A stretch of DNA of 42,875 nt from Candidatus Hydrogenedentota bacterium (GTDB lineage Bacteria; Hydrogenedentota; Hydrogenedentia; Hydrogenedentales; JAJRTN01). The DNA lies in the NCBI GenBank assembly GCA_024278275.1, contig JAJRTN010000132.1, forward strand, positions 1-42,875, in the 5' to 3' direction. The position numbers were made by a program, and so were the translations under genes. The notes below the pieces were generated by a model. The model did not search any database. It was given only the letters and a program-made list of their open reading frames with translations, and had not been told where the DNA came from. This document shows positions 14,579 through 42,738 of this stretch, one piece after another (position 1 is the stretch's first letter; each line of letters starts with the position of its first letter).

Positions 14579-14602
14579 CAGGCGACAACCATGGAGAACA
14601 TC

Positions 14603-16555
14603 ATGCAGGAATCGACCGTATTGGACTTATCCAAATTGAACTGGACCCTGGAAGGATGGCGCCCTTTCGCCTGGCGGCTGGAGCGCAGCCGGGAAACAGG
14701 CGGTGCGCTGAAAGCCGACGTGGGACCCATCCCCGCGCGGGTGCCGGGTTCGGTGCAGGAGAACCTGCGCCGCGAGGACTTACTGCCGAACTGGAATGTG
14801 GGGCTCCAAAGCCGGGCTTGTGAATGGACGGAACATCGCCATTGGCTCTTCGAGGCGGAGCTGCCTTCCCGCGCGCCGGGAAGCGGCCCGGTGGTCCTGG
14901 CGGCGGACGGGCTGGATTACAGCGGCTGGATCCTGGTGGACAACGTGGAAGTGGCGGCCTTCCAGGGAACCCTCGTGCCCCATCGCTTCAACCTGGGCGA
15001 ATCCGTGACGGACGGCCAACCCCACCGCCTGGCCATTGTCTTTGACGAACCGCCCCGGGAACAGGGACAAATCGGCTACAGTTCCCGCTCGCGTTTTTTC
15101 AAGCCGCGCTACACCTACAGTTGGGACTGGACACCGCGCATGGTCGCCATCGGGATCTGGGACCGGCTCCACCTGGAAACGGGGATGGCCGCCCGGTTCC
15201 AGGTGGACAAGGTACTGGCCTCGTTGGACGAAGACCTGGCCACGGGCCGGGTCCGGGTGACCGCGACGCTGGAAGAAACGGCCGGAGCGCACCACCTGGA
15301 GGCCGAACTCCTGGATGGCGATTCTCCCGTTGCCACAAAGCGCATTCCCGTGTCGGAGACCATGGCGCTCGACCTGGCCGCCCCGGTGTCGCCATGGTGG
15401 CCGAACGGGCTGGGGGAAGCTAAGACCTACCGCCTTGTATTGCGCATGCTGGACGAAACGGACGCGGTCCTGGTGAAAACAGAACGGAGCGTGGGCTTCA
15501 AACGGGTGGAATGGCGTCCCTGTGAAGGTGCGCCGGAAGACGCGGAGCCGTGGATTTGCGTGGTGAACGGTACGCCCTGCTTTCTTCAAGGCGTCAACTG
15601 GGTCCCGCCCAAGCTGAATTACGCCGACGCGAACGAAGCCGATTACCGGGCCTTGACCGATCTCTACCGGGACATGGGCTGCACCATTATCCGCGTCTGG
15701 GGCGGCGCCCTGCTGGAAAAAGAGTGGTTCTACCGGCAGTGCGATGAAGCCGGTATCATGGTGTGGCAGGAGTTTCCCCTGTCGTCCTCCGGAATTGAAA
15801 ACCTGCCGCCCGACGCACCGGAGGCGATTGCCACGCTGACCGACATTGCCCGCAGCTACATTCACCGCCGGGCACATCACCCGTCCCTGCTGCTGTGGTG
15901 CGGCGGCAACGAACTGACCGACACGGACACGGTGCCCGTGGACACCACCCACCCCGCCATTCGTGCCATGGCCGACGTGGTTTCCGAGGAAGACCCGGAC
16001 CGCCGCTTCCTGGCGACTTCCTCCAGCGGTCCCACCTTCTACGCCCTGCCGGAGAACATGGGCAAGGGCCTGCACCACGATGTACACGGCCCCTGGGGCC
16101 TGGGCCAGCCCGGCGTTCCGGACATGGAAGGCTGGAAAACCTACTGGGCGAACGACGACGCCCTGTTCCGCTCCGAGACCGGCATGCCGGGCGCCCAATC
16201 CCTCGAAGCCATGCAGCGCTACCGCGGCGAAGAAGCCGTCTGGCCGCCGATCACCCCCTATTGGCGGCACACGGCCTCCTGGTGGACCCAATGGGACCGG
16301 CTGAAGGACCAGTTTGGCGACATGGACGAGGCGGAAGGATTGCCCGCCTACATCGCGCACACCCAGGCGGTCCAGGCCGACGCCTATGCCACCGCGGCCG
16401 CCGCCTGCAAGGCACGGTTCCCCCGTTGCGGCGGATTCATCATATGGGAAGGACACGACTGCTTCCCCTGTCCCGCCAACAATTCCGTCATCGAGTTTCC
16501 CGCCACCCCGAAACCGGCCTACCACCTGCTGCGCCGGATCTTCCGGGGAAAATAA
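14603..16555 (+). CDS. Glycoside hydrolase family 2, beta-mannosidase-like
   Basis: About 650 residues. Order: sugar-binding jelly roll, Ig-like beta-sandwich, then a TIM barrel. Barrel landmarks are GVNWVPP, IIRVWGGALLEKEWFY, the acid/base Glu in WCGGNELTD and the likely nucleophile Glu in RSETGMPG (E437 and E525 counted from the ATG at 14603). This layout matches retaining exo-beta-mannosidases more than beta-galactosidases. The protein is shorter than typical 800-residue beta-mannosidases and lacks the C-terminal beta domains. No signal peptide is visible, so it may act on imported oligosaccharides. GGAG with a 6-base spacer supports the second ATG; the ATG at 14591 adds four residues. It converges on the UroD-GH172 operon. 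Confidence 0.85.
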   Translation: MQESTVLDLSKLNWTLEGWRPFAWRLERSRETGGALKADVGPIPARVPGSVQENLRREDLLPNWNVGLQSRACEWTEHRHWLFEAELPSRAPGSGPVVLAADGLDYSGWILVDNVEVAAFQGTLVPHRFNLGESVTDGQPHRLAIVFDEPPREQGQIGYSSRSRFFKPRYTYSWDWTPRMVAIGIWDRLHLETGMAARFQVDKVLASLDEDLATGRVRVTATLEETAGAHHLEAELLDGDSPVATKRIPVSETMALDLAAPVSPWWPNGLGEAKTYRLVLRMLDETDAVLVKTERSVGFKRVEWRPCEGAPEDAEPWICVVNGTPCFLQGVNWVPPKLNYADANEADYRALTDLYRDMGCTIIRVWGGALLEKEWFYRQCDEAGIMVWQEFPLSSSGIENLPPDAPEAIATLTDIARSYIHRRAHHPSLLLWCGGNELTDTDTVPVDTTHPAIRAMADVVSEEDPDRRFLATSSSGPTFYALPENMGKGLHHDVHGPWGLGQPGVPDMEGWKTYWANDDALFRSETGMPGAQSLEAMQRYRGEEAVWPPITPYWRHTASWWTQWDRLKDQFGDMDEAEGLPAYIAHTQAVQADAYATAAAACKARFPRCGGFIIWEGHDCFPCPANNSVIEFPATPKPAYHLLRRIFRGK

Positions 16556-16579: not shown

Positions 16580-17662
16580 TCAGATCACTTCGAGCCCGTC
16601 CCGACCGGGGAACGCGGGGAACGGCGCGGTGGGAAGTTGCTGGTACCAATAGGCGACGGAAGCAATGTCGTCCTGTAGCGGCAGATAGCGACCGCCGCTC
16701 CGCCAGCCCAGGGCCTGAATGGTTACCCTCAGGTCCCGCTCGAAGCGGATGGGGTCGGTGATGTGCCAGCGGTACAGGCCGAAGCGTTGTTGAGAGTTGT
16801 AGACGCCATCGGGCCGGATCACCTGGTGCATGCCGGCGTAAGGCGTTGTATACTCCTGATACTGGCCTGTCGCTTTGTTCTCGAAGTTATAAGAGCCACC
16901 GAAATAATCCTCCGTGCCCGTGCCGCAGATGGTGGGAAACTTCTCGTCGCCGTCCAGGAAGAATTTGATCTCTCCCTCCCCCCACCATCCCGTGTTATTC
17001 ACACCCCAAGCCATGTACGTGCCCACATACTGCCCTTGCCCCTCGATACCGTCCACCAAGGTATGCACCTCCTTGTAGGGCAACGGGTTAGACCGTCGGA
17101 ACTGGGCATGAAAATAGGCGGCGTTTTCGGGAATCTCTGTCATCACGTAGTTGATCTGGTAGAAAAAGTAGAGGCTCTCCCCCTCGTTCAGGTTCTCGAT
17201 GGTGATGCGACAACGCCTGCGGAAAGGCATCTCCCAATAGCAGTTGAACGCACTGCCGGGGTTGACGCATACGGCCAGCGAAGATAACTGGGCATAGCGG
17301 CTCCACCCCATGCAGAAAAAATCACCGAGGGGGCACTCCACCGACGGCTGCTCCTGACCATCCCAGTAAATCCGCAACACCCAGTGCCGCCAATGTCCCA
17401 TGGGGGTGAACCACATCTGTTGGATGGCCCCCGGGCCCGAGATATCGGCGAGGGTGAGCGTTTCTCCGGGCTTTACAATGGCGCAGGGCCGGCATTTCCA
17501 CCCCAAGCCCAAATCCCTGCTCGCGGGATTGGTTTCCGCGGGGGCCATCCCGCCCTTTCCCTTCTCGCCGGTTGGATTCTCGGCGCAAATGGATCGCGTT
17601 TGGGCGTGCGACAATTGACTCAGGTTCCCCATGCCGCATCCCAACCCGTTGAACTCGGCCAT
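16580..17662 (-). CDS. DUF2961 / GH172 family glycoside hydrolase
   Basis: 360 residues from the ATG at 17662, chosen because GGAG lies 6 bases upstream; the GTG 21 bases further out has no such site. The sequence has the DUF2961 pattern: an N-terminal jelly roll with IVKPGETLTLADISGPGAIQQ-type opening and the diagnostic GTGTEDYFGGSYNF. Family members characterised as GH172 act on fructofuranosides (difructose dianhydride) or D-arabinofuranosides and form oligomers. No signal peptide is visible. It is encoded 33 bases after the UroD-family gene in one operon, so its product or substrate is probably handled by that partner. The exact furanoside cannot be told from sequence alone. Confidence 0.85.
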   Translation of the reverse strand: MAEFNGLGCGMGNLSQLSHAQTRSICAENPTGEKGKGGMAPAETNPASRDLGLGWKCRPCAIVKPGETLTLADISGPGAIQQMWFTPMGHWRHWVLRIYWDGQEQPSVECPLGDFFCMGWSRYAQLSSLAVCVNPGSAFNCYWEMPFRRRCRITIENLNEGESLYFFYQINYVMTEIPENAAYFHAQFRRSNPLPYKEVHTLVDGIEGQGQYVGTYMAWGVNNTGWWGEGEIKFFLDGDEKFPTICGTGTEDYFGGSYNFENKATGQYQEYTTPYAGMHQVIRPDGVYNSQQRFGLYRWHITDPIRFERDLRVTIQALGWRSGGRYLPLQDDIASVAYWYQQLPTAPFPAFPGRDGLEVI

Positions 17663-17695
17663 TCCGCTCTCCTTTCCTGTCACTCACTCAGCCGC

Positions 17696-18799
17696 TTACG
17701 CCAGGAACCGGCGGCCTTCGTCCAACATGGCGAGGTAGTTGTCGAGAGGGATGTAGTTGGCCACGCTGTTGCCCGTGCCGAGGCAATAACCGCCACCATA
17801 CTGACAGGCCTCCAGTGTTTCCCGTACCCGGCACCGGACCTCGTCCACGGTGGAGCGACAAAGAAAGTCGATATCAATACCGCCCAGAATAGCCATGCGG
17901 TCCCCATATTCCCGTTTTGCCTGTATGGGCGTCTGGATCGTGTCCTCGTAGGAATGCTTGGCGTCAATCCGCACCTCCTCAATCAAATCTTCCATGATGC
18001 TGGACAGGTCGCCGCAGGAATGCAAGAGGTAAGGGCGGCCCGCGTCGTGGGCCATACGCGCCATGATCTTGTGGCCCTCAAGCATGAACTCACGGGTATC
18101 GTCGGGTCCCAGGAGCAAACCATTCCGGAAACCCATATCGTCGCTGCCCCAAATCAGTTTCACGCGATCGAACTGCAAAACGCGCCGGAGATACATCACC
18201 GAGAAGTCGGTGATTCGCTTGGCAATCGCCTCAACCAAGTCCCGCTTCTCACAAAGGGCCATGCACAACGTTTCGTACCCCATGAGGAAGGACAGACCCT
18301 CGGCGAAATGGCCAAAGCCCCCCACGGCCATGACACACATTCCTTCGGGCAGGTGTTCCTCGTACCACTCCAGGGCCGCCGTGGAGGCTGCGGCAGGGAC
18401 GGGCCAGGGATAGGCCTCGAAGTCCTCCCAACTGGCAATGGGGCCCCGGTGCAGATCCACGAAACCGCGCCCGCCCGCGCGGGCCAGACCGGCCGTGTCT
18501 TCCGTGGTCCGGACGCCATAGGAAAAGGTCATCCCTTCCAGATTCCCGCGAACATAATCGTAGCCCAGGAAAGACTGAAGCGCGATTTCCTTGCGCAGTG
18601 GGGCAAAGGGATCCGCCGGATCGATGTCCTCCCAGACACCATGGCGTTCAGCGACGGCATCTTGTATCTCCTGGTCGAGGAACAATTCGATGTGATGGAC
18701 CCGGGTGGGTTCACCCTCCCGCAAGATGCAACGCCGCAAGCCTTCCCAATCCGGTGTAACCGCCACCTCAAACAGGCGGTGCCTTCTTGCGCGGTCCAT
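17696..18799 (-). CDS. UroD-family (MtaA-like) methyltransferase or decarboxylase homologue
   Basis: 367 residues from the ATG at 18799 (GGAGG, 5-base spacer). The fold is that of uroporphyrinogen decarboxylase, ending in the family motif GTGNSVANYIPLDNY. It is not haem-pathway HemE: it lacks the usual N-terminal Arg motif. It has H260-x-C262 (LLHSCGD) and C339 (GGYCLGTG), the zinc-thiol triad arrangement used by corrinoid:thiol methyltransferases such as MtaA and MtbA. That suggests methyl-group chemistry, but no corrinoid protein gene is nearby. Co-transcription with GH172 hints at a role on a modified, perhaps methylated, sugar; this is inference. UroD-like genes are abundant in this bacterial group and mostly uncharacterised. 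Confidence 0.8.
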   Translation of the reverse strand: MDRARRHRLFEVAVTPDWEGLRRCILREGEPTRVHHIELFLDQEIQDAVAERHGVWEDIDPADPFAPLRKEIALQSFLGYDYVRGNLEGMTFSYGVRTTEDTAGLARAGGRGFVDLHRGPIASWEDFEAYPWPVPAAASTAALEWYEEHLPEGMCVMAVGGFGHFAEGLSFLMGYETLCMALCEKRDLVEAIAKRITDFSVMYLRRVLQFDRVKLIWGSDDMGFRNGLLLGPDDTREFMLEGHKIMARMAHDAGRPYLLHSCGDLSSIMEDLIEEVRIDAKHSYEDTIQTPIQAKREYGDRMAILGGIDIDFLCRSTVDEVRCRVRETLEACQYGGGYCLGTGNSVANYIPLDNYLAMLDEGRRFLA

Positions 18800-18844
18800 A
18801 TGGTCCTCCCTTTTCCACATCTTTGCTGATGTAAAATCAGGAAC

Positions 18845-18990: not shown

Positions 18991-19644
18991 GTGCAAGTAC
19001 AGGCCACCGTCAGCAAACAGCAAAAGCGGGAACAGTCCACCGCGCATATCATGGACGCGGCACTTGAGCTCTTCATGACCAAGGGCTTCCACCAAACCAC
19101 GGTGGAAGAGATCGCCGTGAAAGCCGGCCTTGCCCCCGCCACGATCTACTACTACTTCGGCACAAAGGAAAAACTGGCCATGGCCATTGGGGCGCATTAT
19201 CTCAACGACCTGACCCGGTATGAGATGACCATTATCAACCAGGGCGAATCGATCCGCGAGCGCATTCATCATCTGGTGCGCCACTTCTTCGCGTGGATGC
19301 ATGACCATCCGCTGGCCGGGCGGTTCATCAACAGCCCTGATTTCTTCGGACTGGTTGAAAGCGTGGGCTTGCCCGAGCCATGCCACATTCCGGGCGAGGC
19401 CATCACGCGGCTCATCGAGGAAGGCCAGGCCCTGGGCGAGGTAAGGCAACTGCCGGCTCCGCTGCTGAGCTGGGCCATGCGCATCCCCGTGGACGCGGCC
19501 TTGGCGATCCAGGGCATTCCCATTGGCGCCCCCGGAGGCTCGCCGTCCACCTTTGATATCGCGGAAATGATTTGGCGCGCCATCCGTTCCGACGCGGCTG
19601 CCATCCGGGACTTGGGGTGCGGCCTGGCGCGTCCACAACCATGA
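18991..19644 (+). CDS. TetR/AcrR-family transcriptional regulator
   Basis: 217 residues, starting at a GTG with an excellent AAAGGAGG site 5 bases upstream. The N-terminal helix-turn-helix (about 17-63) has the TetR pattern: AALELFMTKGFHQTTVEEIAVKAG, then ATIYYYFGTKEKL. The C-terminal ligand-binding domain is all-helical and not assignable to a known inducer. It lies divergent from the UroD-GH172 operon and upstream of the pseudopilin, lipoprotein and symporter genes on the same strand. A sugar or sugar-derived ligand is a reasonable guess. The palindrome at its own start site suggests autorepression. Confidence 0.9.
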   Translation: MQVQATVSKQQKREQSTAHIMDAALELFMTKGFHQTTVEEIAVKAGLAPATIYYYFGTKEKLAMAIGAHYLNDLTRYEMTIINQGESIRERIHHLVRHFFAWMHDHPLAGRFINSPDFFGLVESVGLPEPCHIPGEAITRLIEEGQALGEVRQLPAPLLSWAMRIPVDAALAIQGIPIGAPGGSPSTFDIAEMIWRAIRSDAAAIRDLGCGLARPQP

Positions 19645-32424: not shown

Positions 32425-33636
32425 CTAAAAGGACGGCATCTCCGGCTCGAATGCGGGGACAATGGCCAGGCCCTCTATCTCGACGAGCCAGCCCGGACGA
32501 CAGACGGGGGCTACGACGATTACGACCGGTGCGTCGCCGAAACGTTCCCCCAACTCACGCCACAACAGGGCGTGGTCGCCGGGGTCGCGAACGTAAACGA
32601 TGATCGAAGCCATGTCCTCGAGTGTGGCGCCGGCCCGGCCCAGCAGGGCTTCAACGTTGTCCAGGGCGCGGTCGAATTGCCGTAATACATCGCCGGGAAA
32701 AAGGATGTTTCCGCGGGGATCGATGCTTGCCGTGCCCGAAATGAAGACATGTTTGCGGTCCCGATAGGTCACTGCGGTGGCACGCTCGAAGGTCACCCCG
32801 TAGTCCGCGGTGGGACCGAGGTGGTCCGGCGCTTCCAGGTAGTCAATCTGATCCGGCCGCACCCCTGATATGGCATAGGCATCCATGCAGACCTTGGCGG
32901 CCACGTCCGCGGACGCGCCTTCGATCCCCGTGCTGGCAATGAAATGCGTGTCCGCCGACAGTCCCCGTTCCGCGAAAAGCTCCCGCCGGGCAACCACCAT
33001 GCCCTGGTAATTCGCGTCGATGTTCCGCACGAAGAACCAGGTTCGGATCACATTGTCCGCCAGCGTGAGATTCCGCGTTCGCAGGAAGGCTTCATACCTG
33101 GCAAATATACGCCGCGTCTGTTCATGGGAAGTTTCCGAAGCCGCCTCGGTGACGCCCGTCGTCCAATGATGGGAAAGCGTTCCCCGCTTCAGCGTCAGGG
33201 ACGCGCCCTCTTTGCTCTTCTCCAATTCCGACTGGGGGTCACGCACGTGATACGCCCAAAGAGCCACTTTCGCCGGGGGCACCGGGGGCTGGCCAACCCA
33301 CGATACGGCGCAAAGAGCGTCCCTGTCGCGGGGATCCGAAAAAGGCCGGCTCGCGAGGGCGGCCGCCTGGTTCGGCAGGTCCGTGCAGAAAAAGCGCCGA
33401 AGAAGGGCCGTCCCCATATCCAGTCCGAAAGCATCGAGGGCATCCCGGTATGCACGGAACAACCAGCCCAATTGGGTGTCCATGTCCGCATATTCGGTGG
33501 GCCGGGCGGCCAGGTGGTATTCGTCCACGCCATTTGACGCCTGGAAGCGGGCAATTTGGATCGACACGGGAAGGTTCCCGCCATCGAGGCGATGGAACGT
33601 CAATGGCGATATCCTGGAAATAACGGCGGAATCCAT
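32425..33636 (-). CDS. RidA/YjgF-domain protein, chorismatase-like
   Basis: 403 residues, start supported by GAGGAG 8 bases before the ATG. The C-terminal 130 residues have the RidA fold pattern: FISGTASIDPRGNILFPGDV, then ASIIVYVRDPGDH and CRPGWLVEIEGLAIV, with the substrate-binding Arg (about R380). The N-terminal 230 residues resemble the second half of FkbO/Hyg5-type chorismatases, which are degenerate double YjgF folds. RidA proteins hydrolyse reactive imines; chorismatases cleave chorismate. No pathway for either is nearby. It follows the DUF1501 gene by 45 bases, so it is probably in the same transcript, an odd companion for Tat-exported proteins. Confidence 0.72.
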   Translation of the reverse strand: MDSAVISRISPLTFHRLDGGNLPVSIQIARFQASNGVDEYHLAARPTEYADMDTQLGWLFRAYRDALDAFGLDMGTALLRRFFCTDLPNQAAALASRPFSDPRDRDALCAVSWVGQPPVPPAKVALWAYHVRDPQSELEKSKEGASLTLKRGTLSHHWTTGVTEAASETSHEQTRRIFARYEAFLRTRNLTLADNVIRTWFFVRNIDANYQGMVVARRELFAERGLSADTHFIASTGIEGASADVAAKVCMDAYAISGVRPDQIDYLEAPDHLGPTADYGVTFERATAVTYRDRKHVFISGTASIDPRGNILFPGDVLRQFDRALDNVEALLGRAGATLEDMASIIVYVRDPGDHALLWRELGERFGDAPVVIVVAPVCRPGWLVEIEGLAIVPAFEPEMPSF

Positions 33637-40649: not shown

Positions 40650-41726
40650 ATGAGCATGACAATGGGCGAACGCATGTTGGCCCTGGCACAAGGGCGCGCG
40701 GTGGACCGGGTTCCTTTCGTGCAGTACTGGGATATGACGGGGCCCAATGAAACGGCCTGGAAACTCGTGGGCCGTGAGAAGATGGGCGTACTCAAATGGG
40801 TCAGCGCCTACCGGTATGAGACGCCGAACTGCCACCTGGATCAGGAAGAACTGGAACGGAACGGATTGCGTGGCATACGCCGGCGTCTGCACACGCCGAA
40901 GGGCACACTGGAATCGGTGAGCTATTTTGAACCCGTGTTCAACTCGCCATCGCAGGAAAGTCACTTTGTCAAGGAACCGTCGGATTACCAGGTGCTCCTG
41001 GCCTATTTCCGGGATCTCGTGGTCCATGCCAACGTGGACGGCGTGCGGGACACCTTGGCCGACGTGGGCGAAGTTGGTCTCCCCCACACGGCCGTTGATC
41101 GCACGCCCTACCAGCAACTGTGGGTACAATGGGTCAGCATGGAGGATTTGCCCCTGCACCTGATGCTGGAACCGGACATCATGGCGGAGGTCATCGAGGC
41201 GATGGTTCAGGTACAGCACCGCGTGTTTCAGGCGGCGTGCGAAGTCGTGAAGGCGCTGCCCGTTCCCTACATCGTGGTGCCCGACAACATCACGGCGCCG
41301 GTCATCGGCAAGACCTATTTCGATCAGTACTGTGTGCCCGCCTATAATGCGTTGGCGGAACAGCTCGACGCCACGGGGAAGGACATCCCCGTGTTCGTTC
41401 ACATGGATGGCGACCTGAAACCCTTGTGGGAATCCATCGACGGATGCCGCGTGCGCGGAATTGACAGCCTGTCGCCGCCGCCCGACAACGACACCCGGGT
41501 CGCGGACGCCTTGGCGCGCTGGCCGGAGATGCGGGTATGCATCAATTTCCCCTCCTCCGTCCACCTGGCACCACCGGAGAAGGTGTACCAGGCCACCCTG
41601 CGCTTCCTGGAGGAAGGCGGCCGAAGCAACCGCTTGCAGATTCAAGTGTCTGAAAATGTGCCTCCGGACATATGGCCGTCGAGCTATCCCCAGATCGTGA
41701 AAGCCATCGACGACTTTTATGGGTAA
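40650..41726 (+). CDS. UroD-family protein (second copy, no HxC site)
   Basis: 358 residues; GGAG lies 9 bases before the ATG. The overall pattern is uroporphyrinogen decarboxylase-like (PYIVVPDNITAPVIGKTYFDQYCVPAYNAL, FVHMDGDLKPLWESI, GIDSLSPPPDNDT). The Zn-type HxC of the 17696 gene is replaced by H-M-D, and no late Cys matches it, so corrinoid-methyltransferase chemistry is less likely here. It is not a haem-pathway HemE. The DapA-family gene follows with an overlap or a short gap, suggesting two successive steps in catabolism of a small acid or sugar. The substrate is unknown. Confidence 0.8.
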   Translation: MSMTMGERMLALAQGRAVDRVPFVQYWDMTGPNETAWKLVGREKMGVLKWVSAYRYETPNCHLDQEELERNGLRGIRRRLHTPKGTLESVSYFEPVFNSPSQESHFVKEPSDYQVLLAYFRDLVVHANVDGVRDTLADVGEVGLPHTAVDRTPYQQLWVQWVSMEDLPLHLMLEPDIMAEVIEAMVQVQHRVFQAACEVVKALPVPYIVVPDNITAPVIGKTYFDQYCVPAYNALAEQLDATGKDIPVFVHMDGDLKPLWESIDGCRVRGIDSLSPPPDNDTRVADALARWPEMRVCINFPSSVHLAPPEKVYQATLRFLEEGGRSNRLQIQVSENVPPDIWPSSYPQIVKAIDDFYG

Positions 41727-41748
41727 TACAACAGAAGGATTCCTTACC

Positions 41749-42738
41749 ATGGATGTACCGGATTTCGTACGCGGCTGTATCGCACCAACTTTCACGGCCT
41801 TTGACGAACAGGGCGCGCTGCACCCCGATGGACAGCGCAACCTGCTCGATTTCATGGTGCGGTCGAAATCCATCAACGCCTTCTTCATGCGTTCCGGCAT
41901 GGGGCAGATGTTCGCGTTCGATTTTGAAGACGTGAAATCCCTGACGCGCACCGCCTGCGCCCACCTTGCCGGAAAAGCGCCCGTCATCGTGGGATGCAAC
42001 GGCGTCTGGGACCGCGATTACGCACGCCGTCCCGACCCCGGAGTTTTCCAGGCACAGTGCGTCACCCTGGGCCAATACGCAGCCGATCAGGGCGCGAACG
42101 GCGTGGTCTTCACCATGCCGGAGGCGTTGGTTCCCGGGGATGGCAAAACGGTTCGGGACGTGGTACTGCGCTTTTTCGAGCGGATGAATGACGCCGTGAG
42201 CCTACCCATTTTTATCTACCAACCGCCGGGCACCGGGGAGGCCTACCGCCTGACACCGGAACTCATCGCAACCTTGGCGGAGATGGATCACATTTGCGCG
42301 GCAAAGGTCTCCTATAGCGACATGGAATACGTGCTTGGGCTCATCCGCGCCGTGAAAGACAAGCCTTTCGTCTTCATCACCGGCGTTGAGACCGTCTACT
42401 TCGCCACGCTCTACGCCGGTTCACGAGCCGCCATCGGCCAGGGAGCCTGTCTCAACCCATCGGTACTGAACGCGGTACGCACGGCCTTCCTAGATGGCGA
42501 CCGGGAGCGGGCCTTGCAGGCGCAGGAAGCGGTGAATCTACTGGTTCACGCCTGTGGAAACGCCCCCTACTTTCTCAAACGCTACGCCACGGAACACGGC
42601 TTCCCCGTCCCCCCCCATGCACGCCCCATGCCGGGGGACCTCTACAAAAGCAAAGGGACGGCCATGACAGACGAAGAATACACCACATTCAAACGTTTAC
42701 TGGAGGAAAAGATCGCCCGCTTCCCGGAGCCGGCCTAA
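41749..42738 (+). CDS. Dihydrodipicolinate synthase/N-acetylneuraminate lyase family protein
   Basis: 329 residues of the DapA/NanA class I aldolase barrel family. Key residues: Y157 (FIYQPPG) and Schiff-base K186 (CAAKVSYSD). The substrate-carboxylate motif, normally GTTGE, is SGMGQ here (49-53), so the substrate probably differs from pyruvate/aspartate-semialdehyde. The start at 41749 fits the family N terminus and has AAGGA upstream; an ATG at 41719 would overlap the UroD stop as ATGGGTAA. Members cleave or condense 2-keto acids, including sugar acids. It ends 66 bases before a strong terminator. Confidence 0.87.
   Translation: MDVPDFVRGCIAPTFTAFDEQGALHPDGQRNLLDFMVRSKSINAFFMRSGMGQMFAFDFEDVKSLTRTACAHLAGKAPVIVGCNGVWDRDYARRPDPGVFQAQCVTLGQYAADQGANGVVFTMPEALVPGDGKTVRDVVLRFFERMNDAVSLPIFIYQPPGTGEAYRLTPELIATLAEMDHICAAKVSYSDMEYVLGLIRAVKDKPFVFITGVETVYFATLYAGSRAAIGQGACLNPSVLNAVRTAFLDGDRERALQAQEAVNLLVHACGNAPYFLKRYATEHGFPVPPHARPMPGDLYKSKGTAMTDEEYTTFKRLLEEKIARFPEPA

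Follow-up and report, generated by a model that had tools for sequence, protein, structure and literature searches.

Within the UroD superfamily, MtaA (the methylcobalamin:coenzyme M methyltransferase, 4ay7/4ay8) is the closest described relative of the protein considered here. A His-Cys-Cys set in this superfamily marks S/Se-methyltransferases, and in place of one Cys or of both, the O-methyltransferases have carboxylates or residues that do not coordinate metal (PMC10418091); zinc is absent from some MTI members (PMC13222342). MtvB, OdmB, VdmB, MtoB and CdmB, which are O-demethylases and haloalkane enzymes of the MTI type, belong to systems of MTI, corrinoid protein and MTII (PMC13222342), and the Mlp proteins of type 1 MGC clusters, nearly always His-Cys-Cys, are clustered with a corrinoid protein (PMC10418091). 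For the GH172 family, ExoMA1 (8ic8, PMC10509167) and aFFase1 (7v1v, PMC8605356) were used for comparison.

The UroD and GH172 genes

The window (the whole analysed stretch of 42,875 nucleotides from a Candidatus Hydrogenedentota bacterium) contains a UroD-type gene adjoining a GH172 gene on the minus strand, as an earlier sequence-only reading had described, and the two products match PF01208 and DUF2961, respectively. The genes of the locus are as follows.

17696..18820, minus strand: UroD-superfamily gene, 374 aa from start 18820
16580..17662, minus strand: GH172 (DUF2961) gene, likely ATG start at 17662
18991..19644, plus strand: TetR-family regulator gene (PF00440, E 8e-18), divergent from the UroD gene
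14591..16555, plus strand: GH2-type glycosidase gene (PF22666, E 2e-18), convergent with the UroD-GH172 pair

An alternative start of the UroD gene at 18799, behind GGGAGG, gives a protein of 367 aa. For the GH172 gene, the ATG at 17662, which lies behind AGGAAAGGAG, is the better start, and the GTG at 17683 is also open; the gap between the two genes is 33 bp or 12 bp, respectively. The codon-position GC of the pair (0.64/0.42/0.73 and 0.55/0.47/0.76) is gene-like on the minus strand. The TetR-family protein is a possible regulator of the pair, and the inverted repeats and promoter-like sites sought as its operator and promoter occurred at chance level only.

The GH172 protein scored 335 bits against DUF2961 (Pfam), 423 bits against the exo-alpha-D-arabinofuranosidase 8ic8 and 149 bits against aFFase1 (7v1v). 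Like ExoMA1 and aFFase1, it keeps the catalytic Glu pair of the family, E236/E258 (numbered from the GTG) corresponding to E270/E291 of aFFase1. Unlike in those systems, its neighbour is a UroD protein, and GH183/GH116 partners were not found among the genes annotated here. No signal peptide was evident in the protein, which is of a cytosolic type. It probably acts inside the cell as an alpha-D-arabinofuranosidase or a fructofuranosidase.

Two further regions of the window were recorded. Positions 40650-42738 (plus strand) hold another UroD-family gene (358 aa), only distantly related to the first, in which HMDG replaces HSCG, with a DHDPS-like aldolase gene directly after it. The gene at 32425-33636 (minus strand) showed weak similarity to the FkbO/Hyg5 chorismatases (62 bits against a cut-off of 325), and it adjoins multihaem cytochrome-like and DUF1501/DUF1800 genes.

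Family, fold and active-site residues of the UroD-like protein

The UroD-like protein matched PF01208 with 61 bits (E 1.1e-16, cut-off 23.9), which places it in the UroD superfamily. Its NCBIfam matches were all of the MtaA/CmuA type, with 46 bits against a cut-off of 244, 27 against 400 and 25 against 600; it therefore scores about one fifth of the cut-off or less, and fails the equivalog and subfamily thresholds for the soluble coenzyme M methyltransferases (MtaA/MtbA). The sole PDB sequence match was MtaA 4ay7 (phmmer, E 4e-7), and the AF2 model (pLDDT 94) matched the fold of MtaA 4ay7/4ay8 first and HemE structures next. These comparisons support a position nearer the corrinoid methyltransferases (MtaA) than HemE by sequence, and marginally so by fold, and the kinship drawn by the sequence-only reading, with corrinoid methyltransferases and not with haem synthesis, was upheld. 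That the protein is a second uroporphyrinogen decarboxylase of the haem pathway is accordingly most improbable: it has the UroD fold, but the HemE-specific model was absent among its NCBIfam matches, its HxC / H-C-N pattern speaks against that function, and the genome (G000; 5.35 Mb, 96% complete, 41 PF01208 matches) encodes a separate HemE-like copy (296 bits).

A set of 79 relatives with 53-70% identity to the UroD-like protein was collected from more than ten phyla, and the window's own genome has two copies of this group. The protein is a member of a widespread, uncharacterised clade of the UroD superfamily, named here the H-C-N clade after the residues described below; no characterised member was found. 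Residues are numbered from start 18820, which adds 7 to the numbers of the sequence-only reading (counted from the Met at 18799). The positions concerned are as follows.

18014..18022, minus strand: H267-S268-C269 (H260-x-C262 in the earlier numbering), at the end of the barrel strand 264-267, aligned with the HxC of MtaA
17783..17785, minus strand: Cys346 (C339 in the earlier numbering), inside strand beta-8 (AF2 strand 345-347)
17768..17770, minus strand: Asn351, in the column of the third zinc-ligand Cys of MtaA (phmmer, hhalign and MAFFT)

A zinc site of the HxC...C type had been proposed for the protein. The HxC part stood, as H267 and C269 were identical in all 80 sequences (the UroD-like protein and its 79 relatives). 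The third Cys did not: Cys346 sits five residues ahead of the MtaA zinc-Cys column, and 8 of the 79 relatives, including the nearest one (69.6% identity), have Val, Leu or Phe instead, so that the proposed retention of all three residues in close homologues failed at this position. Cys346 was ruled out as third zinc ligand on this ground and because the MtaA Cys aligns to Asn351 instead. Position 351 was Asn in 80/80 sequences, and seven proteins from a sister group (~43% identity) share this residue. Since the column of the third MtaA Cys is occupied by this invariant Asn, the triad of the clade is His-Cys-Asn and not the His-Cys-Cys of MtaA/MtbA. Another cysteine, which is C339 in the numbering from 18820 and distinct from the C339 of the sequence-only reading, is invariant; it ends the helix before beta-8, which puts it at the opposite barrel face.

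Like MtaA, the protein combines the UroD fold with an HxC in the same place; unlike MtaA, it shows only 18-19% identity, an Asn for the third zinc Cys and no coenzyme M context. Because His-Cys-Cys goes with S/Se-methyl transfer (PMC10418091), the motif as originally read would argue against O-demethylation, whereas the corrected H-C-N set is compatible with it. The other UroD copies of the genome carry H-C-H (10), D-D-H (5), H-D-H (4), H-C-D (2), H-C-E (1) and a few other sets, and no H-C-C set was present among the approximately 30 of the 41 matches that were sampled.

Neighbourhoods of the pair and of the UroD orthologues

The adjacency of the two genes had been taken to suggest that the UroD-like enzyme demethylates an O-methylated furanoside directly, acting with the GH172 enzyme as one step of glycan degradation. 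The short distance between the genes on one strand and the apparently intact catalytic residues of the GH172 protein agree with this proposal, as does the replacement of zinc Cys in the O-methyltransferases of the superfamily (PMC10418091), which the H-C-N clade shares. Three neighbourhood surveys were made of the pairing. No GH172 gene lay within up to 8 kb of the UroD gene at the 80 UroD loci, where contig ends shorten some flanks, and no UroD gene stood beside 29 other GH172 loci (flanks of ~1.5 kb). Of 60 genomes of the same phylum, 31 have members of the UroD family or of its sister group and 48 have close GH172 homologues; by their reported coordinates, the two genes were nowhere close together outside the window's own genome. 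A conserved UroD-GH172 pair was thus ruled out by all three surveys, the pairing being conserved in neither direction. As GH172 shares a transcription unit with the UroD gene in this lineage only, it does not define the substrate of the UroD-like protein, and nothing ties that substrate to a furanoside.

Other carbohydrate genes were found beside some orthologues, at times tightly. One orthologue overlaps a melibiase gene (L042), another has a GH130 gene 2 bp upstream (L095), and a third is followed just downstream by a GH2 gene (L049) that is a 671-bit homologue of the GH2-type gene of the window. Further neighbours were sulfatase, Gfo/Idh, SMP-30, gluconolactonase-like, Iso_dh and amidohydrolase genes. 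It is plausible that the orthologues are loosely tied to carbohydrate loci. No alternative conserved partner gene was found: even the most frequent neighbours, among them Gfo/Idh (7 loci) and sulfatases (6), make up a small minority. The glycosidases and sulfatases lend the direct demethylation of a furanoside some unspecific support; against it, the carbohydrate-active enzymes differ from locus to locus, many orthologues stand beside unrelated genes (tRNA synthetase, SUF, GcpE), and the third Cys on which the proposal drew is lost in close homologues. Taken together with the missing pair in the other genomes examined, this makes the proposal improbable. As a separate observation, at two of the closest orthologues (L040:9513-10688 and L041:9140-10285) the next gene belongs to the 2-hydroxyglutaryl-CoA dehydratase D-component family.

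Corrinoid proteins, the activator and the proposed reaction

Corrinoid-binding and RamA-like genes, which the sequence-only reading had suggested seeking, were both found in the genome. It encodes one dedicated corrinoid protein (contig C9), MetH and one RACo (contig C197; AcsV/RamA-like), and thus possesses the corrinoid protein and reductive activator that go with an MTI enzyme. The corrinoid protein lies in a cluster at C9:33470-36550 (= L121:7475-10552), with the order UroD (H-C-H), UroD (D-D-H), corrinoid protein and a MetH-activation-like gene, beside a divergent AraC gene. In L189, from another lineage, two UroD genes are paired in a similar way, close to genes for a corrinoid protein and RACo.

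Across many phyla, RACo was present in 38/40 genomes carrying the H-C-N family, and a short corrinoid protein (a reading frame under 400 aa) in 21 of the 24 family-carrying genomes scored. Within the phylum, RACo occurred in 24/26 family-positive and 26/42 family-negative genomes (Fisher p = 0.0096, kinship ignored), a difference that comes mainly from three families with neither RACo nor the H-C-N family. The short corrinoid protein showed no significant association in the 60 genomes (20/24 carriers vs 26/36 non-carriers, p = 0.37). At one Planctomycetes locus (L052), a gene with a homocysteine S-methyltransferase domain lies a few bases downstream of the orthologue. The same domain was found directly before another UroD copy of the window's genome (L018) and in a gammaproteobacterial operon of UroD, corrinoid protein, S-methyltransferase and RACo (L186). 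These contexts support methyl transfer by the H-C-N clade but do not prove it.

The explanation preferred on these results, with chances of about even, is that the UroD-like protein is a substrate:corrinoid methyltransferase of the MTI type that uses an unlinked corrinoid protein. A small methylated compound would be bound in the UroD barrel, with the H-C-N residues at its mouth; the methyl group would be passed to a corrinoid protein that stands by itself and is encoded at another locus, the one at C9 being the only dedicated candidate, and the single RACo homologue would maintain this protein in its active state. The MtaA/CmuA-type sequence matches and the MtaA fold match favour methyl transfer, as do the C9 cluster with the single RACo, the occurrence of RACo and of the short corrinoid protein in carriers, and the S-methyltransferase neighbour at the Planctomycetes locus. 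Several observations count against it. No corrinoid protein gene was found within 8 kb of the clade's genes at the 80 loci, so the linkage typical of MTI enzymes was missing; the UroD genes that are linked to a corrinoid protein are H-C-H or D-D-H and not H-C-N; the methyltransferase models score far below their cut-offs; and there are carriers without RACo (2/40) or, within the phylum, without a recognisable short corrinoid protein (4 of 24).

The UroD-like protein shares with MtvB, OdmB, VdmB, MtoB and CdmB, compared by description only, the superfamily and the proposed role of substrate:corrinoid methyltransferase; unlike those systems, it has no linked partner (PMC13222342). With the Mlp proteins it shares the superfamily and genomes that encode a corrinoid protein and an activase, but the H-C-N clade is His-Cys-Asn and unlinked (PMC10418091).

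The same absence of linkage, and the Asn in place of a third Cys or His ligand, would also fit a clade that has abandoned methyl transfer and uses the barrel for a different reaction, as a lyase, an isomerase or a decarboxylase, with an intermediate from the general breakdown of carbohydrates or acids as substrate. HemE, another member of the superfamily, decarboxylates its substrate without a cofactor, and the Iso_dh, SMP-30, Gfo/Idh and amidohydrolase neighbours are consistent with such a role. The near-universal co-occurrence with RACo over unrelated phyla and the single case of an operon shared with a gene for a homocysteine S-methyltransferase (L052) argue otherwise, and this explanation is considered possible, though doubtful.

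The importance of the locus rests on the H-C-N clade and not on the GH172 link, given the strong conservation of the clade (53-70%) over its phyla, mostly of uncultured bacteria. If its members are methyltransferases, these bacteria may draw one-carbon units from a source that has so far gone untested; if they are not, the UroD fold has an activity that is new to it. On a wider and rather unlikely view, Hydrogenedentota and allied bacteria might run a hub of some tens of UroD-type methyltransferases, the H-C-N clade included, each with its own compounds to demethylate, O-methylated sugars released by glycosidases being among them, and all feeding one shared corrinoid protein, as an oxygen-independent counterpart of the P450 demethylation of sugars. 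Among the papers that were accessible, none on corrinoid-dependent sugar demethylation was found.

Two minor observations concern the corrinoid genes. In two gammaproteobacterial MAGs (L186:7456-12668 and L188:8214-12086), genes for a corrinoid protein, a protein of 225 aa with no Pfam match, a homocysteine S-methyltransferase-domain protein and RACo stand in a row, preceded at L186 by UroD as the first gene; this row is possibly a corrinoid system that hands methyl groups to homocysteine. Moreover, a single in-frame stop, not always of the same type, occurs in many of the RACo matches in the genomes surveyed, probably where the profile overruns the true stop.
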